In this document: one piece after another, positions 11,405 to 33,214 of the stretch
Position numbering within the stretch: the stretch's first letter is position 1
Layout: the number at the start of each line of letters is the position of its first letter
Source of the DNA: Deltaproteobacteria bacterium HGW-Deltaproteobacteria-13
GTDB lineage: Bacteria > Desulfobacterota > Syntrophia > Syntrophales > Smithellaceae
NCBI GenBank assembly: GCA_002840555.1
Contig: PHBJ01000019.1
Location: 1-38,653 of the forward strand
DNA length: 38,653 nucleotides
Direction: 5' to 3'
Made by a program: the position numbers and the translations under genes
The notes under the pieces: generated by a model
Told to the model about the DNA's origin: nothing
Seen by the model: only the letters and a program-made list of their open reading frames with translations
Database searches by the model: none

Positions 11405-12244
11405 TTGAATAAAATCATTGAAAAGGCAAGTTTGTCCGAGAATATCGTCAAAATGGTACTGGAATCTCCGGTCATTGCGAAAAAGAGAAAGGCCGGACAA
11501 TTCATTATTCTGAAGATTAATGAAAAGGGCGAACGAATTCCGCTGACCATTGTTGATTCCGATGTGCAAAAGGGAACCATCACCATCATTTTTCAGATTG
11601 TGGGAAAAACGACGGCGCAACTGGCTGCACTTAATGTGGGGGATTCGCTTCAGGATTTACAGGGACCCTTGGGCCATCCGACGGAAATTGCCCATTACGG
11701 CCGCGTGGTTTGCATCGGCGGCGGCGTCGGCGTCGGCGTTGTTTATCCGGTGATCGTTGCTTTGAAGAAGGCGGGCAATGAAGTGATTTCCATCATCGGA
11801 TCACGCACGAAAGCTTCGCTCATTCTGGAAAAAGAAATCAGAGAGAATTCCGATCGCCTGATCGTTACGACGGATGACGGAAGCTACGGTATTCATGGTT
11901 TTGTCAGCTCTGTCTTTGAACAGGAAGTGCTTGACAAAGGTGAGCATGTTGACCGTGTGTTTACCATTGGTCCGGTGCCGATGATGGTGGCCGTTTGCAA
12001 GATAACAAAACTGCATCGAATAAAAACAATCGTCAGTCTGAATTCGATCATGGTGGACGCGACGGGAATGTGCGGGGCTTGCCGTGTTAATGTTGCGGGA
12101 AAAACAAAATTCACGTGTGTTGACGGTCCCGAATTTGACGGCCACGATGTCGATTTTGATTTATTATCCGATCGGCTGAGAATGTATTGCGACATGGAAC
12201 GGGAGGCTTATGAAAAACATAAGTGCGGATGTGATGGAAACTAA
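11405..12244 (+). CDS. nfnA: NfnA / SudB, NAD- and [2Fe-2S]-binding subunit of transhydrogenase
   Basis: A 279-aa small subunit of the NADH-dependent ferredoxin:NADP oxidoreductase (also annotated as sulfide dehydrogenase SudB). It has an FAD region (RIPLTIVDSD) and a nucleotide fold (VVCIGGGVGVGVVYPV). A C-terminal [2Fe-2S] motif reads MCGACRVNV with a later Cys in FTCVDGPEF. It starts with TTG behind GAGGAG. It overlaps the next gene by 35 bases, as is common for this pair. Nfn couples NADH plus reduced ferredoxin to NADPH, so it would connect the Flx/Hdr pools to biosynthetic reductant. Confidence 0.9.
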   Translation: MNKIIEKASLSENIVKMVLESPVIAKKRKAGQFIILKINEKGERIPLTIVDSDVQKGTITIIFQIVGKTTAQLAALNVGDSLQDLQGPLGHPTEIAHYGRVVCIGGGVGVGVVYPVIVALKKAGNEVISIIGSRTKASLILEKEIRENSDRLIVTTDDGSYGIHGFVSSVFEQEVLDKGEHVDRVFTIGPVPMMVAVCKITKLHRIKTIVSLNSIMVDATGMCGACRVNVAGKTKFTCVDGPEFDGHDVDFDLLSDRLRMYCDMEREAYEKHKCGCDGN

Positions 12245-13649
12245 AGAGACGAAAGTAAAAAAAGAAAAAGTTCCGCGGCAGAACATGCCGGAGCAGGATC
12301 CCAAAAAAAGAATTCGTAATTTTGAAGAAGTTCCTTTGGGATATTCCGAAAAAACGGCGATCATTGAAGCGAAGCGTTGCATTCAGTGCAAAAATCCGGG
12401 CTGTGTGCGCGGGTGTCCCGTTGATGTCAAGATTCCCGAATTTATCCAGCAAATTGCCGAAGGCCGTTTTATTGAAGCGGCGTTAAAATTAAAGGAAACC
12501 AATGGACTGCCGGCTGTCTGCGGCCGTGTCTGCCCGCAGGAAGATCAGTGTGAGAAAGAATGTATCTTAGGCAAAAAGGGAGAACCGGTGGCTATCGGTC
12601 GTCTCGAACGCTTCGCGGCGGATTATGAACGGAACAGCGGCAAAATTTCGATCCCTCCGGCTGTAAAACCAAACGGTAAAAAAGTTGCCGTTGCCGGCGC
12701 AGGCCCCTCGGGACTCACCATCGCGGGCGATCTGGTCAAGCTGGGCTATGATGTTACCATTTATGAAGCCCTGCATAAAGCCGGCGGCGTACTGGTTTAC
12801 GGCATTCCGGAATTCCGGCTCCCCAAAGCCATTGTCGAAGCGGAAGTTGAATATTTGCGCAAACTCGGTGTAAAGATCGAAACGAATTTTGTTATCGGGC
12901 GCACAAAAACAATTGATGAGCTTTTTGCCGATGGATTTGACGCTGTCTTTATCGGTGTGGGCGCGGGCGCTCCCGTATTTATGAACATTCCCGGTGAAAA
13001 CCTGGGTGACATATATTCGGCCAATGAATATTTAACGCGCTCCAATTTGATGAAGGCCTATTTATTCCCCGAATACGATACGCCGATTGTCCGTGGCAAG
13101 AAAGTCGCTGTTGTCGGCGGCGGCAACGTGGCGATGGATTCCGTCCGTACCGCCTTGAGGCTTGGCGCCGAACGAGCGATGATTATTTACCGCCGCACCG
13201 GCGTGGAAATGCCGGCACGGCAAGAAGAAGTTCATCACGCAAAGGAAGAGGGCGTGGAATTTCTGATGCTGACGAATCCCCTGGAATATATCGGCAACTC
13301 TCTCGGCAGGGTAATCGGTATGAAATGCATCAGAATGGAGCTGGGTGAACCGGACGCCTCCGGGAGAAGAAGCCCGGTCCCGATCAAAGGCTCCGAATTC
13401 GTCATGGATGTGGATACCGTTGTTGTTGCGGTAGGCACCATGGCCAATCCGATTATTCCGGCAACCACGCCGAATCTGCATACCAACAAATGGGGCTATA
13501 TCTCGACACATGACGCTTCAGGACTAACCAGCCGCAAGGGCATTTATGCCGGCGGCGATATTGTCACCGGTTCGGCAACGGTTATCCTGGCGATGGGCGC
13601 CGGCCGCAAGGCGGCCAACGCGATCCATGAATACCTTTCGGGAAAATAA
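12210..13649 (+). CDS. nfnB: NfnB / SudA, FAD- and NADPH-binding subunit
   Basis: A 479-aa GltD-like large subunit of Nfn. The N-terminal Fe-S domain has CIQCKNPGCVRGCP and CGRVCPQEDQCEKEC. Two dinucleotide folds follow: VAVAGAGPSGLTIAGDL (FAD, about residue 155) and VAVVGGGNVAMDSVRTA (NADPH, about residue 295). The C-terminus has the usual GIYAGGDIVTGSATVI. The first 30 residues are lysine-rich. The start at 12210 has GGGAGG close upstream; an ATG nine codons later is the alternative. It is translated in overlap with nfnA. A lone NADPH-glutamate synthase small subunit is unlikely given the partner. Confidence 0.92.
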   Translation: MKNISADVMETKETKVKKEKVPRQNMPEQDPKKRIRNFEEVPLGYSEKTAIIEAKRCIQCKNPGCVRGCPVDVKIPEFIQQIAEGRFIEAALKLKETNGLPAVCGRVCPQEDQCEKECILGKKGEPVAIGRLERFAADYERNSGKISIPPAVKPNGKKVAVAGAGPSGLTIAGDLVKLGYDVTIYEALHKAGGVLVYGIPEFRLPKAIVEAEVEYLRKLGVKIETNFVIGRTKTIDELFADGFDAVFIGVGAGAPVFMNIPGENLGDIYSANEYLTRSNLMKAYLFPEYDTPIVRGKKVAVVGGGNVAMDSVRTALRLGAERAMIIYRRTGVEMPARQEEVHHAKEEGVEFLMLTNPLEYIGNSLGRVIGMKCIRMELGEPDASGRRSPVPIKGSEFVMDVDTVVVAVGTMANPIIPATTPNLHTNKWGYISTHDASGLTSRKGIYAGGDIVTGSATVILAMGAGRKAANAIHEYLSGK

Positions 13650-14344: not shown

Positions 14345-16528
14345 ATGAAATATATCAAAACACCGCTTGTTCATGGGTATGCCAATCAAATTCTTTCCAT
14401 AGAATTGGGGAAAGACCGCATAACCGTCAATCCACTGGAGCCGATGGTCCGTGATTATTTTATCGGCGGCAGGGGGATGGGGCTGTATCTTCTGCATCAG
14501 AAAGTCAATTCCGGTACAACCGCTTATGACGCTCAAAATCCCCTGATATTTTCTCCCGGACCACTGGGCGGCGTTCCGCAGTTTCCAGGTACAAGCAAGT
14601 GTATGGCGATTTCCTTATCTCCGTTGACCCATATTCCCGGCGTTTCCAACTTCGGCGGCCATTTTGGCGCTTACCTCAAATACGCCGGTTTTGACGCTCT
14701 GGAAATAACCGGCATTGCCGAAGAGAACACGATGATTGTGATCGATGGATTTAAGGAAGAGATATCCATCATCAAAGCTCCCGCTTGCGATCAGGTCTTT
14801 GATCTGGAAAAAGCCATTATCGGGAAGTTCACTCAGGAAGGCCACGAGAAGAAGGATATCGTTTTCCTGTCCACCGGCATTGGCGCGGCCAACACGACAT
14901 ACGGCTGCATTAACAGCCATTATTTCGATGCCACCAAGCCTGTTGATGGAACCAAGGGGATTTTCCGCACGAAGCAGGCCGGACGCACGGGGTTAGGTTC
15001 GGTGATGAGCCATAAGCATATTACCGCGGTTGTAATACTGGCGGCATTTCCGCACGGCGAGAATCCCTATGGCGCGGCCGACTGGGATAAAGTCAAACAG
15101 GCGGGATTGAAGCTGCACAAAATTGTTAAAGAGGTAGATCCTCAAGCGCTCAAAATGCACAGCAAAGGATCGGCCGGTTTAATTTCTTTTATGAATAAAG
15201 ATGAATATCAGTCGCTGCCCGTGAATAATTATCAGTATGGCTCACACCCGCAAGCCCAGCAAATCTGCGGCACGACTTACGCCGAGCGTCTTTTTGAGCA
15301 TCGGGGCATGGACGGCTGTTTTCCAGGCTGCAACCTGCGCTGCACCAAGGGCGGTTGGGTCATTTTGACATCAGGCGAACATAAAGGGCAAAAGGTATGG
15401 GTGGACGGTCCGGAGTATGAAACCGCCGCAGGTTTCGGTTCCAACCTCGGTATGTGGCATCCGGAATTTATCATGGAAGCCAACTGGCATTGCGATAATT
15501 ACGGCATCGATACCATCACGACAGCGGTCATCATGGCATTTCTCATGGAATGCTACCAGCGTGGTTATCTGACGAAAGAAGATACGGATGACTTTGAACT
15601 GACCTGGGGCAATGAAAAGACCGCGTTGGAATTTATTCATCAACTGGCCATCAGAAAAACGGAATTAACCAGTATAGCCGGTTTGGGCATGATAGAGCTG
15701 ATCAAATGGGTTGCCGAAAAATACGTTGCCAGAACAGGCAACCCCAATCCGCAAAAAGAGCTCGAACAATTTGCCATGCAGACCAAAGGTCTGCCTTTTT
15801 CTCTTTACCGGACGCACAGGTCATTATCCATGCAGGCCTCTTATGCCGCGGCCAGTGATATCGGGGCGCATCATGCCGCCGCCTGGCTGGTTAAGGTGGA
15901 TTTGCTGGGCGCGTTTCCCACATTTGAATCCAAGGCCCGGGCTTTAATCACCTATCCGCGCGTTCGTCTGGGTAATGATAATCTGGGACTGTGTAAACTG
16001 CCCTGGGTGGATGTGTTTAATCCCGAATCAGGCCTTCGCAAGGATACCGATATTTACATCAATCCGGCATCGCAGGAAATATACGCCGATTTTTACAATG
16101 GCATGCTGGGCACGAATATGGTCTGGGAGAAGATTTTTGAGCAGACCGATCGCGATATTAATTTACAGCGGGTGATGAATGTCATGGCTTACGGAAAGGA
16201 AACCGGCGAGCACGATTGGATTCCCGACCGGGCAATCGGTCCCACGGAAGATGTTCTTTATGAACTGGAAAGGAAATATCACGATCAGCAATTGAGCGTT
16301 ATTTTAGATAAGACGATATCTGAAATTAAGCAGATGAAAACGACGGATAAGCGGGAAATTCTGATGAGTCACAGAAAAAAAGAATTGCGGAAATTAATCA
16401 GCGTCTATTACCATGAGCGCGGCTGGACCGGGCAGGGCATTCCGAAAGTGGAGACCCTTCAGCACATCGGCCTTTGGAATTTCTTAAGCGAAGAGGCAAA
16501 AGCCGTCATTGCGCAAATGAATGGCTAA
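14345..16528 (+). CDS. Tungsten-type aldehyde:ferredoxin oxidoreductase family protein
   Basis: A 727-aa AOR-family enzyme; these oxidise aldehydes to acids with ferredoxin, or run the reverse reduction of acids, using a bis-pterin tungsten cofactor and one [4Fe-4S] cluster. The N-terminal AOR_N domain has YFIGGRGMGLYLLH and FSPGPLGG. The cluster ligands appear to be C325, C329 and C333 (CFPGCNLRC) plus C550 (LGLCKLPW). The first spacing is C-x3-C, not the usual C-x2-C. The protein is longer than the classical 605-aa AOR, with extra C-terminal helices. It has no signal peptide and is cytoplasmic. Its own leader and GAGGG site suggest single-gene transcription. Substrate unknown. Confidence 0.88.
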   Translation: MKYIKTPLVHGYANQILSIELGKDRITVNPLEPMVRDYFIGGRGMGLYLLHQKVNSGTTAYDAQNPLIFSPGPLGGVPQFPGTSKCMAISLSPLTHIPGVSNFGGHFGAYLKYAGFDALEITGIAEENTMIVIDGFKEEISIIKAPACDQVFDLEKAIIGKFTQEGHEKKDIVFLSTGIGAANTTYGCINSHYFDATKPVDGTKGIFRTKQAGRTGLGSVMSHKHITAVVILAAFPHGENPYGAADWDKVKQAGLKLHKIVKEVDPQALKMHSKGSAGLISFMNKDEYQSLPVNNYQYGSHPQAQQICGTTYAERLFEHRGMDGCFPGCNLRCTKGGWVILTSGEHKGQKVWVDGPEYETAAGFGSNLGMWHPEFIMEANWHCDNYGIDTITTAVIMAFLMECYQRGYLTKEDTDDFELTWGNEKTALEFIHQLAIRKTELTSIAGLGMIELIKWVAEKYVARTGNPNPQKELEQFAMQTKGLPFSLYRTHRSLSMQASYAAASDIGAHHAAAWLVKVDLLGAFPTFESKARALITYPRVRLGNDNLGLCKLPWVDVFNPESGLRKDTDIYINPASQEIYADFYNGMLGTNMVWEKIFEQTDRDINLQRVMNVMAYGKETGEHDWIPDRAIGPTEDVLYELERKYHDQQLSVILDKTISEIKQMKTTDKREILMSHRKKELRKLISVYYHERGWTGQGIPKVETLQHIGLWNFLSEEAKAVIAQMNG

Positions 16529-16679: not shown

Positions 16680-17126
16680 TCACGATATGCGAACGGGCGC
16701 CGGATTATTCATGATAAGCCAGTACAGCCCCAGCGATTTGATCGCATCGGAGAACTCTTTGAAATCGACAGGCTTGCGGACATAACTGTTGGCGCCCGTC
16801 TCATAGCAATTGATCAGATCATTCTTTTCGATTGAGGACGTGAGAATGACCACCGGAAGCAAACGAGTCATTTCATTGCTGCGGATTTTCTTTAACACCT
16901 CCAGTCCATTAATTCTGGGCAGTTTCAAATCAAGGAGAATTAAGACAGGTACGTCTTTCACGTCCCGGCCTTCATGCATGCCGATGCCATTGAGATAATC
17001 GAGGGCTTCCACACCATCTCTGGCGACAACCACCTTATTGGAAATATTGTTTTGCTTGAATGCCCGCAAGGTCAATTCCACATCGTCGGGATTGTCCTCC
17101 ACCAATAGAATTATTTTTTCGCTCAT
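16680..17126 (-). CDS. Stand-alone receiver-domain response regulator (Rcp1-like)
   Basis: A 148-aa CheY-like receiver with no output domain, of the type that follows phytochrome-like and PAS histidine kinases. It has the acidic pair in LLVEDNPDD, the phospho-acceptor D66 in LILLDLKLP, the conserved T/S in VILTSS and K in VRKPVDF. It should accept phosphate from the kinase encoded just upstream (17169-19388) and act by protein contact. The start has GGAGGA upstream. The 42-bp spacer to the kinase carries the local short repeat. It is the last gene of the minus-strand signalling cluster. Confidence 0.9.
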   Translation of the reverse strand: MSEKIILLVEDNPDDVELTLRAFKQNNISNKVVVARDGVEALDYLNGIGMHEGRDVKDVPVLILLDLKLPRINGLEVLKKIRSNEMTRLLPVVILTSSIEKNDLINCYETGANSYVRKPVDFKEFSDAIKSLGLYWLIMNNPAPVRIS

Positions 17127-17168: not shown

Positions 17169-19388
17169 CTACGAATTTCGCTCCGGCAGAGTGAAATAAA
17201 ATGTAGCTCCTTTTCCCGGTTCGGCCTCCGCCCAGATCTTCCCTCCATGGCGGTCAATGACACGCTTTACAGTTGCCAGCCCGATCCCCGTTCCGGGAAA
17301 CTCTTCGGTCCGGTGAAGACGCTGAAAAGCGCCGAAGAGCTTGTTTGCGTAAGCCATATCAAAACCCACACCGTTATCCCGGATAAAATACACCCTCTCG
17401 CCATCCCTGATAGCGGCGCCGAATGCAATACGCGGATGTTTTGTTTTGCCGGTAAACTTAAAGGCATTATCCAGCAGGTTCGTCATAGCGATATTAATCA
17501 GGCGCTGATCCGCCCGGACAATGATGTCTTCCTGAATGTCGACCACAAGGTTGGCAAGCGGACTTCTCTGCTGATTCACATCGGCGATATTGCGAACCAT
17601 GACGCTTAAATCCACATCATCGAGATGAAATTCGAATTGTGTCACACGCGAAAGATTGAGCATATCGTCGATCAACTGCCCCATGTGCTGTGTCGCCCGC
17701 CGAATTCTTTCCAGATAAATTTTCCCTTCGTCATCAAGCTTGTCTTCATAATCCTCCAGCAAAATATGACTGAATCCGTCTATGCTTCGCAGCGGCGCTC
17801 GTAAATCGTGGGAAACGGAATAACTGAAAGCAATCAATTCCTTATTGGTTGCTTTCAGCGATTGATTAATGGAATCGATTTTCTCGGCGCTTTGATTGAG
17901 ATCATCCACCAGATTGAGCAAAGCCATTTGGCTATTGCGCAGTTCGTGGGTCCGCTCCGCCACACGCGTTTCCAATTCAATATTTAGAGAGCTGACTTTC
18001 TCCTCTTCCTGTTTGCGTTTGGTAATGTCTTTGATGATGGATTGCAAAGAACCGTCAGCGGATACCGCCGCGCTTGCTTCTATCAAAAAAACGGACCCGT
18101 CTTTTCGCAGCATGGGACGTTCAAAGTAGAGGGCGTCACCGGTTCGCAAGGCGGCCAGCCGTTGTTTCCCGGCTTCTCTCAATTCCGGGGGATAGGTATC
18201 CAGGATGTTTATCCGCTGAATCTCTTCCCGGGTATATCCGAGCATATCGCACAACCTGGAATTTGCCATAATAAACTGTCCATCCGGACGGAGTGTAAAG
18301 AATCCGTCTGGAATCTGTTCGATCAGCTGACGGATCTGCCTCTCGCCCGCGGACTGCGCTTCCTCCGCCTGCTTGCGCGCGGTAATATCATTGATGCTGG
18401 AAAGGATGCATGGTTCATCGTTTATGGTGATCATTTCCGCCGTGTAAAGTCCCGTGAGTTTCTCCCCCGACTTTTTCCGAAACTGGAATTCTCTGTTGAG
18501 CACCTTGCCGCTCCTCGATAATTCATCTACGACAAATTCACGATCTTCTTCTTTGTCCCACAGATGCAAATTGATGCTCGTGTTTCCTTTTAAGTCCGCA
18601 TATTGATAGCCGGTAATATTTATAAAGCTGTCATTAACTTCTAAAATCTTTCCATCGGAGAGGCGGGTGAGGATAAAAGCATATGGCGAAGAACGAAACG
18701 CCTTGGAAAATTTTTCTTCCTGTATCGAAATATCCATGTGCAAACGTTTATTAATCATCAAAACCAGACTGTACGTCGCAACAATAAACAATATTTGATA
18801 CACAAGCATAACCAGTGCGTCGAATGTGCTGGTTTGAAAAAAATCAGTCTTCATATGAGCGCTTGTGAAAAACTCCGCAATCCTTATGATGCTGAGCAGA
18901 CAATAAAGAACAAACGTGATGCCGACGCCTCGCGTCAGAGGTCGTATGGGCGCCGGGACCTTGTATAGCAAAAGCCACGCGCATTGAAAGCACAGGAACA
19001 GTAAGCCAACGGATGTATTAATTCCTCTTGCCGCGAGATCAGGTTGCACAAAGGTGAAATAGTATTGAACAGAGACCGCTAAAGTTAAATAAATGTAATT
19101 GTGAATCTGAACGCTTTTCTGTCCGACGAATCTTAAAAGCCACATATAGCCCAGGAGTACTCCGACCAATACGAGGGCATTGGACAGCACCATGGATGCC
19201 CAATCCGGAATACTGCCGCGCAGGATTATCAGAATGAGCGCCAGCGTTTGCAGGGCGAAATCAAGCGCCAGCAAAGTTATGTCCGTAAATAATTTACGGC
19301 TCTGCCGCCACAAAAGAACGATAACCAGTAAGCAGACTAAATCAGTAAGCACCGTACTGAAGACGATTGTTCGCATATCCAGGATCAT
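17169..19388 (-). CDS. 7TM-PAS-PAS sensor histidine kinase
   Basis: A 739-aa membrane kinase. About residues 5-225 hold some seven hydrophobic helices (for example VLTDLVCLLVIVLLW), resembling the 7TM input region of histidine kinases. Two PAS domains follow (about 230-350 and 355-470), then a coiled coil (ELETRVAERTHEL) and a HisKA domain with H527 in SHDLRAPLRS. The HATPase domain has NLLDNAFKFT, DNGVGFD and GTGIGLATV. All kinase motifs are intact. I start at 19388, where AGAGGCG lies upstream. Its neighbours are two receiver proteins, so it is the only complete kinase of this cluster. Confidence 0.9.
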   Translation of the reverse strand: MILDMRTIVFSTVLTDLVCLLVIVLLWRQSRKLFTDITLLALDFALQTLALILIILRGSIPDWASMVLSNALVLVGVLLGYMWLLRFVGQKSVQIHNYIYLTLAVSVQYYFTFVQPDLAARGINTSVGLLFLCFQCAWLLLYKVPAPIRPLTRGVGITFVLYCLLSIIRIAEFFTSAHMKTDFFQTSTFDALVMLVYQILFIVATYSLVLMINKRLHMDISIQEEKFSKAFRSSPYAFILTRLSDGKILEVNDSFINITGYQYADLKGNTSINLHLWDKEEDREFVVDELSRSGKVLNREFQFRKKSGEKLTGLYTAEMITINDEPCILSSINDITARKQAEEAQSAGERQIRQLIEQIPDGFFTLRPDGQFIMANSRLCDMLGYTREEIQRINILDTYPPELREAGKQRLAALRTGDALYFERPMLRKDGSVFLIEASAAVSADGSLQSIIKDITKRKQEEEKVSSLNIELETRVAERTHELRNSQMALLNLVDDLNQSAEKIDSINQSLKATNKELIAFSYSVSHDLRAPLRSIDGFSHILLEDYEDKLDDEGKIYLERIRRATQHMGQLIDDMLNLSRVTQFEFHLDDVDLSVMVRNIADVNQQRSPLANLVVDIQEDIIVRADQRLINIAMTNLLDNAFKFTGKTKHPRIAFGAAIRDGERVYFIRDNGVGFDMAYANKLFGAFQRLHRTEEFPGTGIGLATVKRVIDRHGGKIWAEAEPGKGATFYFTLPERNS

Positions 19389-19412
19389 AAGGCGCCTCTT
19401 GTTTCGTGAAAC

Positions 19413-19465
19413 GTGAAGAGTGAATGGTGAATTTTATTTCTTACGTTTCACGCTTCACTCTTCAC
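19413..19465. repeat. Hairpin overlapping the end of the receiver-coil gene
   Basis: GTGAAGAGTGAA (19413-19424) and TTCACTCTTCAC (19454-19465) are perfect 12-bp inverted arms, with a further 5-6 bp inside after a mismatch. The right arm covers the last codons of the gene ending at 19448, so part of its C-terminal sequence (NVKSE) is repeat-derived. Confidence 0.7.
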
Positions 19466-20212
19466 ATTTTCTTTCTTTTCCAGCTCCGCAATCCGTTCCT
19501 TGAGCTCTGCCATTTTCATTTCTCTGCCAACGAATACACGATTCAATTCCTCGAGCCGGTCTATGACGGCATTGAGCTCGGCTGTCCGTTCGATAACTCT
19601 TTGCCCTAATTCTCGATTGAGCCTTGATAGTTCATCTTCCGCCTGTTTGCGCGCGGTGATGTCCTTCGAAAGCTCGCTGTTGATTCGCTCCAACTGTTCC
19701 ATTTTGGCTTCCAGCTTGCGGATGAGCACTTCATTATATTGCTTTAGATAAACGGAATCATCTTTCTCGGCCGCTTCCGGGGGAAGAGGGGATGAGTTGT
19801 TTGCTCCCGGCGTGGTTTGCGTAACGGCTATATTACCGGCTTGCTGGAGGGTTTCCCGAATGATGGTCATGAACACGTCCGACTCCTCCGGCTTGAGGAT
19901 GAAACGCTCGGCGCCAAGGCTAAGAGCGAATCTCCTGTCCCGCTCATCGGTATAAGTGGCGGTGTAGAAGATAAACGGGATCGACTTGAGGCGTTCGTCC
20001 TTCTTCCATTCACGGCACAGAGTAAACCCGTCCATTACCGGCATAAGGATATCGGAGATAATCAGGTCCGGCGGATTCTGCCGCGCCAGGTCCAGCGCTT
20101 CGGCGCCGTGGCTGGCGGTGACAACCTCGTAGCCGTTTCCGTGTAGCAGCGTGTTCAAGAGGTAGCGGTTTTCCTCTCTGTCATCGACAACAAGAATTCT
20201 GTTCATCTTCAT
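19448..20212 (-). CDS. Receiver domain plus coiled-coil protein, no kinase or DNA-binding output
   Basis: A 254-aa protein. Residues 1-125 form a receiver with VVDDREEN, phospho-acceptor D54 in LIISDILMP and K in FILKPEES. A linker is followed by a long coiled coil (about 150-254) of the sort found after PAS domains in kinases (KDITARKQAEDEL, RVIERTAEL). It ends in the tail FVGREMKMAELKERIAELEKK. No HATPase, GGDEF or HTH domain follows. The start is MKMNRIL at 20212 behind GGGAGA; the longer open frame upstream is repeat-rich spacer. It may be a scaffold or phosphate relay partner for the neighbouring sensors. Confidence 0.82.
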   Translation of the reverse strand: MKMNRILVVDDREENRYLLNTLLHGNGYEVVTASHGAEALDLARQNPPDLIISDILMPVMDGFTLCREWKKDERLKSIPFIFYTATYTDERDRRFALSLGAERFILKPEESDVFMTIIRETLQQAGNIAVTQTTPGANNSSPLPPEAAEKDDSVYLKQYNEVLIRKLEAKMEQLERINSELSKDITARKQAEDELSRLNRELGQRVIERTAELNAVIDRLEELNRVFVGREMKMAELKERIAELEKKENVKSEA

Positions 20213-20298
20213 GATGGATTCTCCCTGTTTTTCAATTCGTATTTCATGTTTCGTATCTTCGCGCCCTTTTTTACGAGACACGAACGACGGGATACGTC

Positions 20299-20427
20299 TT
20301 ATTTTTTTCCCAGTTCCGCAATTCGCTCCTGGAGTTCGGCCATCTTCAGTTCCCTGCCGATAAATCAGGAGATAACGCTAAGGTCGACCAGCAAAGATAA
20401 ATTAATAATCAAGTCGATGAAGATCAT
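20299..20427 (-). pseudogene. Collapsed sensor gene: N-terminus joined to C-terminal tail
   Basis: Forty-three codons with a good GGGAGG site. They encode MIFIDLIINLSLLVDLSVIS, then TGA, then FIGRELKMAELQERIAELG-KK and a stop, all in one frame. The first 20 residues look like the start of a LytS-type 5TM sensor protein (family memory: such proteins begin with a similar NLSLLVALSV stretch followed by SGFI). The last 21 match the tail of the two flanking sensors. The simplest reading is a large internal deletion that left both ends, with the TGA arising at or next to the join. The gene is not functional as a sensor. Confidence 0.65.
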
Positions 20428-20449
20428 ATGGCCTCCCGCCTATTATGTT

Positions 20450-21769
20450 TCACTCCTTTTCCATCTCTGCAATCCGCGCTTTGAGTTCCCGCATTCTGAT
20501 CTCCCGATTAACGAATACCTTATTGACCCGTTCCAATTCGGCAGTTTTGGCAGTCAGCTCCATGGTGCGTTCGATAACACGCCGCTCCAGTTCTTCGTTT
20601 AGTTTCTTAACTTCTGCTTGCGCCAGCTTGTTTTCTGTAATATCGCGGGCTGATGATAATACCCCTGTCACTTTTCCCTGAGCATCCTTAAGAACGCGGC
20701 ACCACCAGGCCAATAATCGTTTTTGTCCGTCTTTGCGCCTCTGCCAGCTTTCTACATAAATAATATCTTCACTGCCCCGAAAAAGAGGGTTTACTATATC
20801 ATAAGTATCCTGTTCCCCCTCGAAATAGAATACCGCTTCCCTGCCGATAACGTCTTCACCGAAGAATTCCAGGCCGGGTTCATTTGCCCACGTATAAATT
20901 TTGTTTACATCCACTTCCATCACGATATCGGGAATGGCGGAAAGCAATGCCTGCTGACGAAAGGAAATCTTTTTAAAGTTCTCTTCAGCCTTTTCACGCT
21001 CGGCGATTTCTATATTGAGATTTTCTATAGAGGTAAGAGAGTGTTTCAATTTGGCTGTCATCTCATTACTCGAGCGGGCCAAATCCGCCAGTTCGTCGTC
21101 GCCTGCCTCGTCTATTTGATATTCCAGGTTGCCTTCGCCGATTATTGCTATTCCTTCATTCAGGGCCCCCACTCGTTTTGTCATGATTCTATTGACAGCA
21201 ATTGAATTCATAATCACCGCCATGATGCCGCCGAAAATGAAAACGATGATTAAAAGAAGATTTATGTCGCGGGCCGTTGTCGCTGTTCGTATGGAGTACT
21301 CGTGCAATTTACTGATGCTGTCGTTTAAAGAATAAGCTTTTAAAATTACCTGATTGATCAGTCTTAATTCCGCTTCGGTAAAATCGACTTTCTTTTTTAC
21401 GGCGCCCTGCTTGTGTTTCTCTAAAAGTACGGAGAACGACGAAGCCGTTGCCTCAAAATCATACTTTGCATTTTGCAAGGTATCGATGGCTTCCTTGCCT
21501 GATAATTTTTGGGAAGCTGATTCCAATAATTGCCGGAGCGTCTCAGTCTTCGCGTACCACTGAATTCTCGCGCGATCTTCCCGATTTATCAGCCAATCGT
21601 CTCTCAACATGATGCGTTCAAAGACGATTTTATGTATTTGATCGACTAAACGCTCATTTTGCTCCGTCCTTCTGATTTCCCAAATGGACCAGGACATGGA
21701 AAGCAGTATGAGGGCAATCAAGCCCAGGGAAATCCAGGTATTAAGTTTGAGTCTCTCTTTAATTTTCAT
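20450..21769 (-). CDS. Membrane HAMP-PAS sensor protein without a kinase domain
   Basis: A 439-aa protein. TM1 (about residues 12-30) and TM2 (about 170-190) flank a periplasmic helical sensor region of about 140 residues. HAMP (about 190-245), a coil and one PAS domain (about 268-385) follow. It then ends in a coiled coil with the tail FVNREIRMRELKARIAEMEKE. No HisKA, HATPase, GGDEF or methyl-accepting domain is present, and the stop is clean, so it is not an obvious truncation. It starts at the ATG at 21769, with GGAG eight bases upstream. The binding-protein gene upstream may provide the ligand. It must signal through a partner, possibly the kinase at 17169-19388. Confidence 0.83.
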   Translation of the reverse strand: MKIKERLKLNTWISLGLIALILLSMSWSIWEIRRTEQNERLVDQIHKIVFERIMLRDDWLINREDRARIQWYAKTETLRQLLESASQKLSGKEAIDTLQNAKYDFEATASSFSVLLEKHKQGAVKKKVDFTEAELRLINQVILKAYSLNDSISKLHEYSIRTATTARDINLLLIIVFIFGGIMAVIMNSIAVNRIMTKRVGALNEGIAIIGEGNLEYQIDEAGDDELADLARSSNEMTAKLKHSLTSIENLNIEIAEREKAEENFKKISFRQQALLSAIPDIVMEVDVNKIYTWANEPGLEFFGEDVIGREAVFYFEGEQDTYDIVNPLFRGSEDIIYVESWQRRKDGQKRLLAWWCRVLKDAQGKVTGVLSSARDITENKLAQAEVKKLNEELERRVIERTMELTAKTAELERVNKVFVNREIRMRELKARIAEMEKE

Positions 21770-21902
21770 GTTTTTTTGCTCCGCAAACAAGACGATTACA
21801 ACAATTCAGAAGAATGGTTAATGGTTACAGTTATTAAAAAATCTCTGTAAGTCTGGTATTCATCGCCGTAATCTTTCCCCGGAATCTCTGTAATCTTGCT
21901 TC

Positions 21903-22922
21903 TCATCTTATAATCCTGACCGCATCGGGTTTAACCTCCGCAAGACCGTCAATATAAATAAAATCCAGATAATTGGGTATATTCTTGCGCGTGGTCCATC
22001 CGTTTTTGACGGCCCAGCGGCTCTGATCCTCAAAGTTCACCAACAGAGCCTGATCCAGTGTCACCTGAAAATTGAAACAATCCCAGGTTTCATCAAGAAT
22101 AGCCTGGTCTGCCTTGATGAATTTAGCAGCCACACGGCGCGCTTCAGCAGGGTTTTGCTTGGCAAAGACTTCGGCCTTGATGAGCGCACGCAGAACTTTT
22201 TTGATCGCTTCGGGCCGTTGTTTAACAAAATCCTGCCCTGCGACAATATTGAAGGTTTCGGTATAGATTGTCTCATCATGAAAAATACGTGCTTTATTCC
22301 CCAATTCCTTCTTCATTTTTGTCAGCATTGGATTCCAGGTAGAGACAGCATCCACTCTGCCTGTTTCCAGGGCGGCAGACATCTCGTCTGGTTTCATATC
22401 GACAATGGTCACCTGATTCCTTTGAATGCCATGGGCAAGCAGGAATGAATCGGCAAAAAAATCTCCGGTCGTGCCAAGGGTAACACCGATTTTTTTACCT
22501 TTAAAGTCGGATAGCTTAACAATTCCCCGGTCCTGCCGCGCCACAATGCCTTCATTTTTGTTGGCAGTCTGGATCGTTGCCAGAACTTTCATTTTTTTAC
22601 CGTTCATTACGGCAAAAACGAAGGGTGTATCCGCAACAGTTGCCATGTCCGCATTTCCTCCAAGAACCGACTTAAGCGCTAATTTACCGAAGGCATGAGG
22701 CTGCGGTGTAACGTCTAAACCCTCCGCCTTGAAATAACCTTTGGCAAGGGCGATATGCGCTAGTGTGGCATTGGATGCGGTAGAATAAGCGATAGTGATT
22801 TTTTCCGGTGGTCCGGCATTAAGATTTTTATTTTTTAAACGAAAGCCTGCATAGACTCCCAGACAGATCACAACAAATAAAATTGTAATCACGATAATCA
22901 TTCGTGTTTTGGATATTTTCAT
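21903..22922 (-). CDS. Membrane-anchored NitT/TauT-type substrate-binding protein
   Basis: A 339-aa periplasmic binding protein of the SsuA/TauA/NMT1 family. These bind small organic or inorganic ligands such as sulfonates, nitrate or thiamine precursors. It has an uncleaved-looking N-terminal helix (MIIVITILFVVICLGVYAGF) without a lipobox cysteine. The first lobe follows (ITIAYSTASNATLAHIALAKG), then the typical GKKIGVTLGTTGDFF and GRVDAVSTWNP. No ABC permease or ATPase gene is adjacent. It is instead first in a minus-strand signalling cluster, suggesting it is the ligand-sensing part of a signalling system. An AGGG site precedes the ATG. Confidence 0.87.
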   Translation of the reverse strand: MKISKTRMIIVITILFVVICLGVYAGFRLKNKNLNAGPPEKITIAYSTASNATLAHIALAKGYFKAEGLDVTPQPHAFGKLALKSVLGGNADMATVADTPFVFAVMNGKKMKVLATIQTANKNEGIVARQDRGIVKLSDFKGKKIGVTLGTTGDFFADSFLLAHGIQRNQVTIVDMKPDEMSAALETGRVDAVSTWNPMLTKMKKELGNKARIFHDETIYTETFNIVAGQDFVKQRPEAIKKVLRALIKAEVFAKQNPAEARRVAAKFIKADQAILDETWDCFNFQVTLDQALLVNFEDQSRWAVKNGWTTRKNIPNYLDFIYIDGLAEVKPDAVRIIR

Positions 22923-23135
22923 AGCATGACCCTAACAACCGTTTTATGAATCGTGTTTCACGAGATACGATTTACGCTTTTACGCTTCCCGCAAAGGTCC
23001 CGTTCTTTTTAAGGGTCTTTGGGTGTGTCTTTTTGATGATGCTTGCAGCACAGTAAGAAATTGCATGAAAGAGAAGTAAAAATCCCGGGATCGGCAAAGT
23101 GGTATCCCTAAGTTTAGCCAATCACGCAACTATAC

Positions 23136-29407: not shown

Positions 29408-32400
29408 ATGGCTGAATCCCTGCGTATACTAATTTTGGAAGATAACCCGACTGATGCAGAGCTGGTGCAGTTTGAACTGCAGGAAGCAGGGCTGGTCTTT
29501 ACCGCAAAAGTAGTTAAAACTGAAGAAGATTTTGTTCACGAATTGCAGGCATTTTCTCCGGATCTCATTCTTTCCGATTATGACCTTCCCGAATATAACG
29601 GAACATTGGCTCTTGCCGAGGCCGGAAAAATTTGTCCCGATACCCCTTTTATTCTGGTAACCGGAGCCGTGGGTGAAGACCGGGCCATTGAAATCCTCAC
29701 TCAGGGGGCTAAGGATTATGTCCTGAAAAGCCGGCTCCAACAGCGTCTTGCACCGGCTGTCCGGAGGGTCATTGCGGAAGCCCGGGAACAAAAGGCGCGC
29801 AAAAAAGCTGAAGAGGAACTCCGGGAAGCCCACAGGACTCTGGAAAGCAAGATTGAAGAGAGAACGGCGGAGCTTAAGAAACAAATAGAGCACCGCAGCC
29901 GGATAGAAGCATCCTTGCTCAAATACAATGAGCGGCTGGAGATCCTATCTTACACGGCAAGTCAATTGCTGGAAAGCGATACCCCCCAGCCGCTGGTGGA
30001 AGAGCTGTGCAGGAAAGTGATGAAATTTCTTGAGTGCGACGTCTTTTTTAACTTTATTGTTGATGATTCTTCGGGACGGCTGCACTTAAACGCCTGCGCA
30101 GGTATTGGGCCTGAAACTGCTCGCGAAATCGAGTGGTTGAGCTTCGGCGTGGCCGTATGCGGCTGTGTGGCGCAGGGCGGAGTCAGGATTGTTGCCGAGA
30201 ATATCCCGGCAACACCCGACGTGCGGACAGAACTGATAAAATCCTTCGGGATCAAAGCCTATGCCTGCCATCCGCTCATACAGCAAAATAAGGTGATCGG
30301 GACATTATCTTTCGGCACGCGTACCAGAATAAACTTCAGCGCTGATGATCTGGCTATGATGAAATCCGTTGCCGATCAAGTCGCCGTAGCCATTGCCCGT
30401 GTCAGATCGGAAGAAAAGCTTAAGGAGATAACCGAGCGTTTTGAAATGGCGCAGCAGGCGGCCGAAGTAGGCACCTGGGACTGGGATGTTGTCACCGGCC
30501 GTATCGAATGGTCAGATCAAATGTTTGATCTTTTTCGGCTTGACCCACAGGAAACCCCTGCATCCTTCGAGTCGTGGAAGAGCATCATACATCCTGAAGA
30601 TGCTGAAATAGCAAGCCTCCGGATTGATAAGGCATTGCGTCAGAAGACTATCCTGAACAGCGATTACCGTATTGTACTGCCGGACGGCGAGATTCGCTGG
30701 ATAGGCGCAGTTGGCGAAGGCAAATACGACGATCAGGGCCGGCCAATCAGGATGATTGGCATTTGCATGGACATCACCGGCCGCAAAAAAGCCGAGGATA
30801 TGTTACGCCAGAATGAGCTATTTCTGAGGAAAACCCAGGAAGTTGCCCGATTGGGAGGATGGAAAGCAAACCCGGAAAGTAATTTCCTGATGTGGACGGA
30901 AGGCGTTAATCGCCTTCTCGAGGTGCCGCTGGATTACAAGCCCGGTCTTATTGAGGGCCTGAAATTCTATGTTCCGAAATATATACCGGTGCTCCGCGAA
31001 CGTTTACTGCACACGCTGGCAACAAACGAGCCTTTTTCAGAAGAATGTGAAATTATTACGATGTCCGGCCGGCATGTTTGGGTTGAAGTTCGAGGTCTTT
31101 CGTCCGAGAGGGAAGGCGTAGCAACCTATGTCATAGGAACCATACAAGACATCTCCCAACGCAAAATCAGAGAAAATGAAAAGGAAAAATACAACCGGAC
31201 GCTTCAGGCGCTCTCCAGAAGCAGTCAGGTTATGATGCGTGCCACCGACGAACGCGCCTATATGGAAGAGACATGCAAAATTGTTGTCGAAGACTGCGGC
31301 TACACCATGGTGTGGATCGGTTTTGCCGAAGATGATGAGGACAAAACCGTCCGTCCTGTCGCCTATAGCGGTTTTGAAGAAGGATATATCGAAACATTGA
31401 AAATAACCTGGGCGGATACGGAACGGGGCCGCGGACCGACAGGCACGGCTATCCGTACGGGAAAACCGACGGCATGCAGAAATATGCTCAATGACCCTCG
31501 GTTCGAACCCTGGAGAAAAGAGGCGATCAAAAGAGGATACGCGTCGTCAATCGTCTTGCCTCTGATGGCAGGCGGCAGGGCATTCGGCGCGTTGACCATC
31601 TACTCAAAAGAACCCGATTCCTTTGCCGGAGATGAAGAGAAACTGCTTGCCGAACTGGCCAATGATCTTTCGTACGGTATCACGGCGATCCGGTTGCGCG
31701 AAGCGCTGAAAGAAAGCGAGGAACTCTTCCACGCCATAGCCGCGAACACACCGGATCACATCATGATACAGGACCATGATTTACGCTATCAACTTGCCAT
31801 CAATCCGCAACTCGGTCTTAACGAAGCTGACATGCTGGGAAAAACCGACTATGACATCCTCGACCTAAGGGACGCTGATAAACTCACGACGATCAAGCGA
31901 AAAGTACTGGAAACAGGCGACCCGTTTTCACTGGAATCATCGCTTCGGAATTCTCGCGGCGAACCTGAATATTTTGAGGGAACTTATGTCCCGAAGCTTG
32001 GTCCGGCCGGGCAGATCGAAGGTATCATCGGATATTTCCGTAACATCACTGAACATAAACGCTTCGAGGAAGCGATCCTACGCGCAAAGGATGAATGGGA
32101 GCGGACTTTCGATACAGTTCCGGACCTGATCGCCATTCTCGACAAAGAGCATCGTGTTGTCCGGGTAAATAAAGCGATGGCGCAACGTCTGAAGCTCAAA
32201 CCCGATCAATGCATCGGCGTCAGATGCTACGAGGCCGTTCATGGTCTCTCCTGCCCGCCGGAGTTTTGTCCGCATAGCCTGACTTGCCGGGATGGCGGGG
32301 AGCATATGGCCGAAGTGCACGAAGCAATTCTGGGCGGTGATTTTCTGGTGAGCACAACGCCGCTTTGCGATTCTAAGGGACAACTCGTCGGCTCTGTGCA

Positions 32401-33214
32401 TGTGGCGCGTGACATAACCGGACGCAAAGCCGTGGAAGATCAGTTGACGAAACAGGCGGCGCAACTACAGGAGCGCAAGGCCCAGCTTGAGGAGATCAAC
32501 AGCGAACTCGAAAGTTTCAGCTACTCTGTCTCCCATGACCTTCGCGCGCCTCTTCGGGCCATAGACGGTTTTTCCCGGATAATTCTCAGACAGCAGGGAG
32601 ATAAATTTGATGAGAAAACAAAACATCAATTCAACATGATCAGAGATAACATCAAGCTTATGGGAGCTCTGATTGAGGATCTGCTCTCTTTTTCCAGGGT
32701 GCAAAAAACCAGTATGAGCATTTCCGTAATTGACATGGACAAACTTGCCCGGGAAGTATTGCATGAAATAAAGGCGGTAAATAAGGGACAAAAAATAGAA
32801 TTCAAGATCAAAAAGATAAAGCCCGGATATGGAGACCTGACCCTCATAAGACAAGTGCTGGTCAATCTTTTATCTAATGCCGTTAAATTTACGAAGAATC
32901 AAAAACAAAGCATCATCGAAATGAACAGTTGCCTTGAGTCCGGCAAAACGGTCTATTGCATTAAGGATAATGGAGCCGGATTCGATATGGAACATTACGA
33001 CAAGCTCTTTGGCGTCTTTCAGCGTCTCCATAGCCATGAGGAGTATGAGGGAACGGGCATCGGGCTCGCGATAGTTCAGCGGATCATCAGCCGGCATGGC
33101 GGGCGGGTCTGGGCGGAATCGGCCGTGGGAAAAGGAGCGACATTCTTCTTTACACTGAACAGCTTTCCGGTTGATGGTGCGCCGGAACAACGCCGGAAAA
33201 AGAGAAACAGTTAA
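29408..33214 (+). CDS. REC-GAF-PAS-PAS-GAF-PAS-PAS histidine kinase, 1268 aa
   Basis: A large cytoplasmic kinase with no membrane segment. In order: receiver (1-125, D57 in LILSDYDLP), coiled coil (125-185), GAF (about 185-335), PAS (345-465), PAS (470-595), GAF (600-765), PAS (775-900), PAS (905-1035). HisKA follows with H1043 in SHDLRAPLRA, then HATPase (NLLSNAVKFT, DNGAGFD, GTGIGLAIV). The last PAS contains C935, C940, C949, C954 and C960 with H945 and H956, a possible metal or redox site. The receiver at the N-terminus suggests it is phosphorylated by another kinase. It stands alone in the tRNA-bounded island, with no cognate regulator adjacent. Confidence 0.9.
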   Translation: MAESLRILILEDNPTDAELVQFELQEAGLVFTAKVVKTEEDFVHELQAFSPDLILSDYDLPEYNGTLALAEAGKICPDTPFILVTGAVGEDRAIEILTQGAKDYVLKSRLQQRLAPAVRRVIAEAREQKARKKAEEELREAHRTLESKIEERTAELKKQIEHRSRIEASLLKYNERLEILSYTASQLLESDTPQPLVEELCRKVMKFLECDVFFNFIVDDSSGRLHLNACAGIGPETAREIEWLSFGVAVCGCVAQGGVRIVAENIPATPDVRTELIKSFGIKAYACHPLIQQNKVIGTLSFGTRTRINFSADDLAMMKSVADQVAVAIARVRSEEKLKEITERFEMAQQAAEVGTWDWDVVTGRIEWSDQMFDLFRLDPQETPASFESWKSIIHPEDAEIASLRIDKALRQKTILNSDYRIVLPDGEIRWIGAVGEGKYDDQGRPIRMIGICMDITGRKKAEDMLRQNELFLRKTQEVARLGGWKANPESNFLMWTEGVNRLLEVPLDYKPGLIEGLKFYVPKYIPVLRERLLHTLATNEPFSEECEIITMSGRHVWVEVRGLSSEREGVATYVIGTIQDISQRKIRENEKEKYNRTLQALSRSSQVMMRATDERAYMEETCKIVVEDCGYTMVWIGFAEDDEDKTVRPVAYSGFEEGYIETLKITWADTERGRGPTGTAIRTGKPTACRNMLNDPRFEPWRKEAIKRGYASSIVLPLMAGGRAFGALTIYSKEPDSFAGDEEKLLAELANDLSYGITAIRLREALKESEELFHAIAANTPDHIMIQDHDLRYQLAINPQLGLNEADMLGKTDYDILDLRDADKLTTIKRKVLETGDPFSLESSLRNSRGEPEYFEGTYVPKLGPAGQIEGIIGYFRNITEHKRFEEAILRAKDEWERTFDTVPDLIAILDKEHRVVRVNKAMAQRLKLKPDQCIGVRCYEAVHGLSCPPEFCPHSLTCRDGGEHMAEVHEAILGGDFLVSTTPLCDSKGQLVGSVHVARDITGRKAVEDQLTKQAAQLQERKAQLEEINSELESFSYSVSHDLRAPLRAIDGFSRIILRQQGDKFDEKTKHQFNMIRDNIKLMGALIEDLLSFSRVQKTSMSISVIDMDKLAREVLHEIKAVNKGQKIEFKIKKIKPGYGDLTLIRQVLVNLLSNAVKFTKNQKQSIIEMNSCLESGKTVYCIKDNGAGFDMEHYDKLFGVFQRLHSHEEYEGTGIGLAIVQRIISRHGGRVWAESAVGKGATFFFTLNSFPVDGAPEQRRKKRNS

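Follow-up and report, generated by a model that had tools for sequence, protein, structure and literature searches.

A conserved C-terminal tail on kinase-less sensors and a matching motif in neighbouring enzymes suggest a coiled-coil plug and socket

Sensor proteins without a kinase domain, encoded in the window (the whole 38,653-nucleotide stretch of DNA analysed, from Deltaproteobacteria bacterium HGW-Deltaproteobacteria-13), end in a conserved coiled-coil tail, and the histidine kinase encoded beside them carries a second motif, A-L/M-L-N-x-V/L-E/D-D-L, which is unrelated to the tail, is often found on the neighbouring enzyme and is referred to here as the socket. Sensors that share a tail and an adjacent enzyme with a matching motif resemble a plug and socket, and we consider it probable, on sequence evidence and without bench data, that the two form a trans-acting coiled-coil connection from the sensors to the neighbouring enzyme. 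This reading is based on conservation, C-terminal position, gene order, co-occurrence with the socket, heptad phase and helix prediction, while direct contact between tail and socket, the direction of the signal and the role of each sensor are inferred.

Results

Sensors, kinase and receiver in the window

The genes in question lie on the reverse strand, and the run opens with a periplasmic substrate-binding protein (NMT1/THI5-like, 21903..22922; Pfam NMT1, 1.3e-33); a gene that matches a profile of this protein lies directly ahead of a tail gene in loci L026, L028, L037, L043, L045 and L085. Sensor A (20450..21769) consists of an N-terminal region, HAMP and PAS domains, an ERT coiled coil and the tail, as assigned by Pfam HAMP, NCBIfam PAS S-box and the tail profile. 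Its PAS domain falls just under the Pfam cut-off (26.4 against 27) and passes that of NCBIfam TIGR00229 (36.9 against 22.9). The ATG start of sensor A is our choice, a longer frame being listed from a TTG at 21790. Sensor B (19448..20212; Pfam Response_reg, 6e-25) comprises a receiver domain, a long helix with the ERT signature and the tail, with its start taken as the ATG at 20212, although a longer GTG frame is also listed. It meets the test for a receiver fold, with 88 bits to Pfam PF00072, and Asp53 and Lys106, which we take to be the active residues of the receiver (phospho-accepting Asp and conserved Lys), are invariant across the 8 rows of alignment A4. SlyX scores 19.4 bits on sensor B, against a Pfam cut-off of 30. 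Neither sensor has a Pfam match to HisKA.

The sensor histidine kinase (17169..19388) contains two PAS domains, a socket-bearing linker, HisKA and HATPase by Pfam and, as a sequence-only reading of this DNA had observed, has no tail. Its socket, SQMALLNLVDDLN (17868..17951), lies between the ERT coil and HisKA; it matches profile A2 over 17874-17951 with an E-value of 8.6e-12, is itself a row of that profile, and no second A2 match occurs in the genome with an E-value of 0.01 or below. The kinase is followed by a stand-alone receiver of 148 aa (16680..17126; Pfam Response_reg, 4e-20), which is likely its phosphate acceptor, and the order of kinase and then small receiver is seen again in many of the loci drawn. 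MCP, CheA and CheW are absent among the Pfam matches of the scanned window proteins. No Pfam family covers tail or socket in the window proteins or, with a limit of E 1e-5, in proteins that carry the socket, and NCBIfam searches with five proteins gave no tail or socket family among the matches listed (for three of the proteins, the best 25 of 96, 83 and 81).

Within the 3.51 Mb, 29-contig genome only three tail matches were found (BLAST E up to 1; profile E up to 1e-4). Two are the C-terminal tails of sensor A (20453..20581; profile A1, E 2.7e-21) and sensor B (19472..19600; E 3.2e-22), both of which carry an ERT triplet, in agreement with the earlier description of a tail that follows an ERT-x-EL coiled coil. 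The third is a remnant gene of 21 codons plus stop, with a TGA ahead (20299..20364), recognised by its translation, a DNA alignment and a profile match at 20302-20364 (E 9.1e-8). The three tails first proposed are confirmed, with the correction that nothing of a receptor or ERT part is left in the third. The remnant DNA differs from both full tails at many positions, judged by eye, and is therefore not a fresh copy. The similarity of the tails is not due to chance; the tails of both sensors are rows of profile A1, to which the remnant did not contribute, and because both full tails helped to build the profile, independent support comes from the set of relatives.

The tail is widespread and almost always C-terminal

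Tail profiles match proteins in many phyla, archaea included, and up to seven tail genes occur in a 20-kb locus. One of the tail searches comprises the best 80 matches, in which phyla are not evenly sampled; genes throughout are long open frames and not curated genes, and domain assignments in the loci rely on custom profiles derived from the window proteins and their relatives, Pfam itself being applied to 35 proteins. The tail lies within 30 residues of the C-terminus in 207 of 211 distinct tail ORFs, and only four of the 211 contain a HATPase domain (three with the order HATP-PAS-tail, one with an internal tail ahead of HisKA). These data bear on the original proposal that the tail is a docking or pairing module on proteins lacking kinase domains, for which two refutations had been named: a tail found equally on full kinases, or one that arose only by recent local duplication. 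The rarity of HATPase domains answers the first and the wide spread of the tail rules out the second, so the proposal is supported, with docking itself still an inference.

An ERT-like triplet lies within 60 residues ahead of the tail in 140 of the 211 distinct tails, which meets the ERT test for a signaling helix (S-helix); the remaining 71 have no such triplet by the search pattern used. The further test, a position between two domains of one chain, is not met, as nearly all of these proteins end near the tail. The tail proteins contain an S-helix, and the tail itself is not classed as one.

Enzymes encoded beside tail genes carry the socket

Of 148 uncensored tail ORFs (173 in total, of which 24 reach the locus end and one was lost), 115 are followed on their own strand by a HATPase gene, compared with 10 of 269 uncensored control genes (321 in total, in 20 other stretches of DNA from some of these genomes). 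Of the HATPase genes that come first behind a tail, 50 of 77 carry the socket, while 4 of the 49 other HATPase genes of these loci do. The socket is not confined to kinases: it is also present, near the N-terminus, in HD-GYP enzymes beside tail genes (Pfam HD_5 in six of six scanned) and in SpoIIE enzymes adjoining tail genes, although at locus L230 the tail gene follows the SpoIIE genes. Socket-bearing GGDEF proteins have no tail neighbour in the fetched stretches (L214, L215, L219). The socket was no part of the sequence-only reading, which named no likely partner. Common descent of tail and socket was considered and rejected, hhalign showing no similarity between them. Profile A2 was built from genes beside tails, and is thus partly circular for the window's phylum, and the socket Ala and acidic columns were demanded by the search pattern.

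Across 395 genomes of the window's phylum, the tail is present in 28 of 35 genomes with a socket (3.5 expected), and in 17 of 24 (1.8 expected) without 11 possible seed genomes. In three other phyla it is found in 17 of 17 socket genomes (192-genome sample; 2.2 expected), 20 of 20 (158 genomes; 4.3 expected) and 5 of 6 (157 genomes; 0.3 expected). These three samples are even, with centre genomes picked for having a tail, and leaving out the centre genomes did not change the picture (16/16, 19/19 and 4/5); two of these centres, G451 and G454, also contributed to A2, and some rows of A2 and A3 stem from further genomes of those groups. At the level of neighbourhood, a same-strand tail no more than 5 kb upstream accompanies the socket at 15 of 17, 19 of 21 and 3 of 6 places in the 192-, 158- and 157-genome samples, respectively. 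The association is weaker in the window's own phylum, where profile A1 places an upstream tail within 5 kb of 23 of 40 sockets; five of the 17 without one (L212, L213, L222, L223 and L227) have a tail by profile A3, and without the seed genomes the upstream tail is present at 10 of 26 places and absent at 16. Tail numbers of one search are lower bounds, being counted among the matches listed, and neighbour counts drawn from it rest on one or two tail places per socket-bearing contig, the nearest upstream if any. In the other direction, 49 genomes chosen by tail alone include 43 with a socket (48 matches altogether), and 12 of these 48 sockets have no tail within 20 kb. Tail genomes without a socket at the cut-offs used number 12 of 40 in the window's phylum, and 8 of 25, 14 of 34 and 2 of 7 in the 192-, 158- and 157-genome samples.

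Heptad phase and the alternative readings

Tail, socket and phospho-histidine each keep a fixed heptad phase to the ERT signaling helix. The distance from ERT is 6 mod 7 to the invariant tail Arg (133/140), 2 mod 7 to the socket Ala (43/43) and 5 mod 7 to the phospho-His (51/51). AlphaFold2 predicts a single helix over residues 144-252 of sensor B, with pLDDT of 94-97 over residues 161-240 and 87 over 241-250. A model of a kinase with five sockets, built from one sequence, had a mean pLDDT of 49.9 and was not used. Among solved structures, a search with the tail yielded only coiled coils at chance level, and one with the socket yielded nothing.

As tail and socket both extend the coiled coil in frame and direct contact has not been shown, the tail could be a mere cap that locks the sensor dimer and the socket a stabiliser of the kinase coil, with the operon inherited as a cassette and the signal passing by another route, for example the receiver. 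Tail F20 occurs with socket V15 in 31 of 35 pairs, and residues other than F at that tail position occur with L, I or M in 44 of 45, but the best mutual information score (Z 5.7; permutation maxima with a mean of 4.3) is topped by the largest permutation maximum (Z 11.3), so the covariation is only suggestive. A tree-aware test found 4 independent pairs on well-supported branches, with an average of 1.6 agreeing and 0.0 opposing; with phylogeny taken into account the pairing lacks significance, and the paired changes may reflect co-inheritance. However, a cap would not call for the conserved residues off the a/d core, E24 and K31 (often N17) in the tail and A10 and D17 (often N13) in the socket, with the caveat that E24, A10 and the acidic pair are partly fixed by row selection (heptad letters after Anantharaman, Balaji and Aravind, 2006; PMC1592074). 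Nor does it readily explain why unrelated output enzymes beside the tail have the socket in common, why tail and then socket recur in that order in four phylum samples, or why a sensor-less kinase that follows a PAS-tail gene carries five tandem sockets at a spacing of 21 residues, equal to three heptads. We regard the cap as unlikely, though it is the alternative that survives best.

The position of the socket within the kinase raises a second alternative. About two thirds of socket kinases have the socket in the coil, 31-59 residues ahead of the phospho-histidine; such a near socket, if an ERT coil comes first, is a four-heptad insert, ERT and His being 47 or 54 residues apart in 35 of 38 kinases with a socket and 19 or 26 in 12 of 13 without. 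In the remainder the socket lies further upstream, with a PAS domain in between in the cases read, and in 27 of 79 socket kinases it is at least 122 residues before the phospho-His, which excludes an unbroken straight helix between socket and His as a general arrangement. Such distant sockets, and the 27 of 77 first HATPase genes after tails that have no recognised socket, would fit a tail that docks elsewhere on the kinase, for instance on the DHp bundle, leaving the socket for another partner of the same operon. Against this, four of five such kinases checked, from candidate phyla, have a looser socket pattern; genomes G443, G444 and G453 hold a socket kinase 16-19 kb further along the same contig; and the socket occurs in the scanned HD-GYP and SpoIIE partners, none of which matches HisKA. 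Docking elsewhere thus appears improbable, but we hold the plug-and-socket reading less firmly because of the far sockets and the 10 of 26 neighbours in the window's phylum without seed genomes.

The tail does sit about where HisKA would begin, as first remarked, and its V-G-R-E-L-R resembles V-S-H-D-L-R by eye, but descent from a decayed first helix of HisKA, with the phospho-His changed to Arg in kinases losing their catalytic part, is very unlikely and was rejected on profile comparison (hhalign probability of 1.5 against a 12-row HisKA profile, six coil columns aligned) and by heptad phase (6 against 5 mod 7), the tail moreover being conserved across phyla and not decaying, and failing the HisKA/DHp membership test (H-box His, two-helix hairpin).

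Discussion

Several known systems offer partial parallels. In chemoreceptor/CheW/CheA arrays, a single kinase serves many separate coiled-coil receptors; the likeness lies in many sensors and one kinase, but the tail-linked kinases are of the ordinary HisKA and HATPase type, and some have PAS domains of their own. Polyketide synthase docking domains pair a C-terminal helical plug with a helical segment of the protein encoded next in the operon, a similar layout in proteins of unrelated kind and purpose. In RetS-GacS and similar pairs one sensor modulates another kinase in trans, but both partners are sensor kinases, whereas the tail sensors have no kinase domain. RsbQ-RsbP bipartite sensing (PMC3183031), as far as the available part of that paper describes it, is alike in that a PAS protein coupled to diverse outputs acts together with a second, separate protein; the latter is an alpha/beta hydrolase, unlike a tail-bearing coiled-coil sensor. 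Closest is the S-helix, which, in the accessible portion of its description (Anantharaman, Balaji and Aravind, 2006; PMC1592074), lies nearly always between two signaling domains within a single chain. The ERT-x-EL coil ahead of the tail bears the ERT signature of that family, and the S-helix outputs named there (histidine kinase, HD-GYP, PP2C, diguanylate cyclase) overlap the socket-bearing outputs found here; the chain of the tail proteins instead ends after the helix. That portion contains no mention of the tail and socket motifs, and no description of them was found in the open-licence PMC literature by title or abstract start, nor by queries with the motif letters.

Taken together, these observations suggest how a plug and socket could work. 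Output-less sensors with HAMP, Cache, PAS or receiver domains would dimerise through the known ERT signaling helix, which would continue into the tail in the same heptad frame; the tail would dock on the socket in a helix of the enzyme encoded alongside, and a change in the sensor would travel to the enzyme via the joined helices. With the signal passing through joined helices, one enzyme could read several sensors. In the window, the kinase would take input from the receiver protein and from the HAMP-PAS sensor, the latter perhaps in concert with the binding protein, and would hand its phosphate to the small receiver that follows.

More tentatively, and with somewhat less than even confidence, we propose a general plug-and-socket system of bacteria and archaea, in which any tail sensor may be wired in trans to any socket enzyme (histidine kinase, HD-GYP phosphodiesterase, SpoIIE phosphatase, perhaps diguanylate cyclase), tandem sockets would serve as multi-port hubs, and specificity of wiring would lie in residue pairs (F20/V15, and K31 or R31 with N13 or Y13). 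Many sensors encoded in genomes lack an output domain, and their annotation as PAS or receiver proteins leaves their role unknown. Should the tail bind the socket, orphan sensors of this kind could be assigned to a named enzyme by sequence alone. The system would also provide a portable route for wiring new sensors to kinases or c-di-GMP enzymes, and it makes testable the idea that several inputs are integrated by one enzyme without fusion in one chain.

A shared tail on sensors without kinase domains

The signaling genes of the window form an ordered run on the minus strand, beginning with an NMT1-like binding protein (21903-22922) and continuing with a HAMP-PAS protein without a kinase domain (sensor A, 20450-21769), a tail remnant of 21 codons (20299-20364), a receiver protein (sensor B, 19448-20212), a PAS-PAS-HisKA-HATPase kinase (17169-19388) and a stand-alone receiver (16680-17126). 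As the sequence-only reading had claimed, the same conserved helical tail closes both sensors and the remnant, and is absent from the kinase; the remnant is reduced to its final 21 codons and lies behind a TGA stop. At the cut-offs used, no further tail match was found in the organism's own genome (3.51 Mb) beyond the three in the window.

Short similar stretches with TTTCACG/CGTGAAA-like words were seen by eye at 19390-19470, 20220-20290 and 22930-22990; they occupy gaps between the signaling genes, adjoin the tail stops and are perhaps small intergenic repeats. The opposite strand beside these genes encodes an aldehyde ferredoxin oxidoreductase (14345-16528) and a Fer4_20/Pyr_redox protein (12210-13649). 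A large REC-GAF-PAS-HisKA-HATPase protein (29408-33214) has neither the tail nor its proposed partner motif, the socket, at the profile-search cut-offs used.

Distribution of the tail and gene order

This C-terminal module is widespread: the tail is present in 15 of 60 genomes (the organism's own and 59 relatives), eight of which have two matches on one contig (the window's three counted apart), and in 40 of 395 genomes sampled evenly across the window's phylum. The best 80 matches of a 21-row profile to public genomes gave 73 tail loci, with record titles naming Syntrophaceae, Geobacteraceae, Nitrospirae, Chloroflexi, Treponema, Bacteroidetes, several candidate phyla and archaea. Profile A3, of 60 rows, gave 211 distinct tail ORFs across the loci at hand; the tail lies within 30 residues of the C-terminus in 207 of them, and four also contain a HATPase domain. 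Columns L6, L13, R23, E24, M27, E29, L30, K31 and L37 of A3 are conserved at 90% or more; R-E-x-x-M served as an anchor when rows were selected. Custom profiles found no PAS or receiver domain in 37 tail ORFs, and Pfam analysis of ten of these identified HAMP, dCache_1, sCache_3_3 or DUF1638 in eight.

The four tails further from the end are in L161:3728-8506 and L213:3370-6711, where a Cys-rich domain follows that we take to resemble PocR, L230:6821-9748, followed by approximately 190 residues of unidentified sequence, and L235:5494-6732, with 76 residues beyond the tail. Single proteins in L144, L148 and L152 have a HATPase match first, then PAS, then a C-terminal tail; a gene for a binding protein and a further HATPase gene lie next to them.

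Gene order was assessed for 148 tail ORFs, after 24 of the 173 distinct ORFs in wide loci had reached the locus end and one was lost. A same-strand HATPase gene lies downstream in 115 of these, with nothing but tail genes intervening in 79, compared to 10 of 269 uncensored control genes of at least 150 codons from 20 other 20-kb stretches in genomes with tails. Several genes between tail and kinase start like periplasmic binding proteins (first 70 residues, by eye), and as many as seven tail genes share a single 20-kb locus (L042). In L157 and L160, from two genomes of one family, a 594-residue frame directly follows the tail gene, with no socket gene close by; in L157 this frame begins like an aspartyl-tRNA synthetase.

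A socket motif linked to the tail

Kinases behind tails were read to have a common linker segment, the socket (A-L-L-N-x-V-D/E-D-L), exemplified by SQMALLNLVDDLN in the window kinase. In tail-chosen loci it occurs on 50 of 77 first HATPase genes after a tail versus 4 of 49 other HATPase genes, and on none of the five HATPase genes that the 20 control stretches contain. As the socket was discovered in these same loci, whole genomes were searched for it (profile A2).

In the window's phylum the socket was found in 35 of 395 genomes, 28 of which also have the tail (3.5 expected); with 11 possible seed genomes removed the figure is 17 of 24 (1.8 expected). A same-strand tail lies within 5 kb upstream of 23 of 40 socket places (10 of 26 without seeds) with tail profile A1, and five more gain one with A3. 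Three other phyla were sampled around the centre genomes G466 (record title Paceibacterota, containing locus L083), G451 (Nitrospirae, L056) and G454 (ANME-2 cluster archaeon, L059). There the tail accompanies the socket in 17/17, 20/20 and 5/6 socket genomes, occurs overall in 25/192, 34/158 and 7/157 genomes, and lies on the same strand within 5 kb upstream of 15/17, 19/21 and 3/6 socket matches, respectively. These centre genomes were selected by tail, and G451 and G454 also contributed rows to the socket profile; without the three centres the genome counts are 16/16, 19/19 and 4/5. Six of the seven socket matches without an upstream tail in these three phyla come from genomes with tails on other contigs. 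Selection by tail alone gave 49 genomes from many groups, of which 43 have the socket; of the 48 socket matches in these, at least 31 have a tail no more than 5 kb upstream and at least 36 have one within 20 kb. The genetic link between tail and socket is strong. Tail genomes without a socket are common: 12/40 in the window's phylum, and 8/25, 14/34 and 2/7 in those of G466, G451 and G454.

An archaeal genome (G740:C37:59443-59991) has a tail match and a weak match to the socket, each in a 462-aa open frame; the two frames are perhaps one protein bearing both motifs.

Enzyme classes, helix register and paired residues

HD-GYP enzymes account for nine of the socket proteins encoded next to tail genes: each of the six run through Pfam has HD_5 (L149, L153, L222, L225, L228, L231), and three were assigned by reading alone (L155, L212, L226). 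Two SpoIIE-like socket proteins precede the tail gene of L230, one confirmed by Pfam. GGDEF proteins with sockets exist (Pfam, L214 and L215), with no tail neighbor within the stretches fetched. A kinase without a sensor domain (L150, 2224-3390), behind a PAS-tail gene, has five tandem sockets at 21-residue spacing, or three heptads each, which reads naturally as several docking places; L208 has two consecutive copies by pattern match.

PMC1592074 describes the ERT signature as that of the signaling helix, placed almost always between two signaling domains. The distance from the ERT Thr is 6 mod 7 to the tail Arg in 133 of the 140 tails with an ERT-like triplet (absent by the pattern used in 71 of 211), 2 mod 7 to the socket Ala in 43/43 (of 98 distinct sockets) and 5 mod 7 to the phospho-His in 51/51 kinases. 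Thr and His are 47 or 54 residues apart in 35 of 38 socket kinases versus 19 or 26 in 12 of 13 others, which amounts to a four-heptad insert in the socket kinases. Among 79 socket kinases, the socket Ala precedes the His by 31-59 residues in 52 and by at least 122 in 27, where another domain separates the two in those read. By our own reckoning, with the heptad letters of PMC1592074 (ERT = c, d, e), heptad position e is taken by tail N17, E24 and K31, and position g by A10 and D17 of the socket. AlphaFold2 predicts a single helix for sensor B residues 144-252 (pLDDT 94-97 for 161-240; 87 for 241-250).

In 80 neighboring tail-socket pairs (82 prior to thinning), socket V15 accompanies tail F20 in 31/35, and L, I or M accompanies non-F20 tails in 44/45; tail R31 occurs with Tyr or Phe at socket position 13 in 8/8, and K31 with Asn in 66/72. 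These paired changes are compatible with contact, although kinship could also produce them: covariation scores remain inside the permutation extremes, and a tree of 68 kinases yields only four independent pairs on well-supported branches, with means of 1.6 agreeing and 0.0 opposing. The pairing is suggestive only.

Discussion

The most economical explanation is a plug-and-socket arrangement acting in trans, by which output-less sensors would join a neighboring enzyme via the conserved helical tail; the contact itself and the route of signal transfer are inferred. Receptor-kinase arrays are alike in that many sensors feed one enzyme, and polyketide-synthase docking helices are alike in layout; the tail-socket system is filed with neither. 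Neither motif was found in the searchable libraries or papers (most subscription papers lay outside this scope), and a single connector would serve enzymes of several classes. The components that it joins are all well known.
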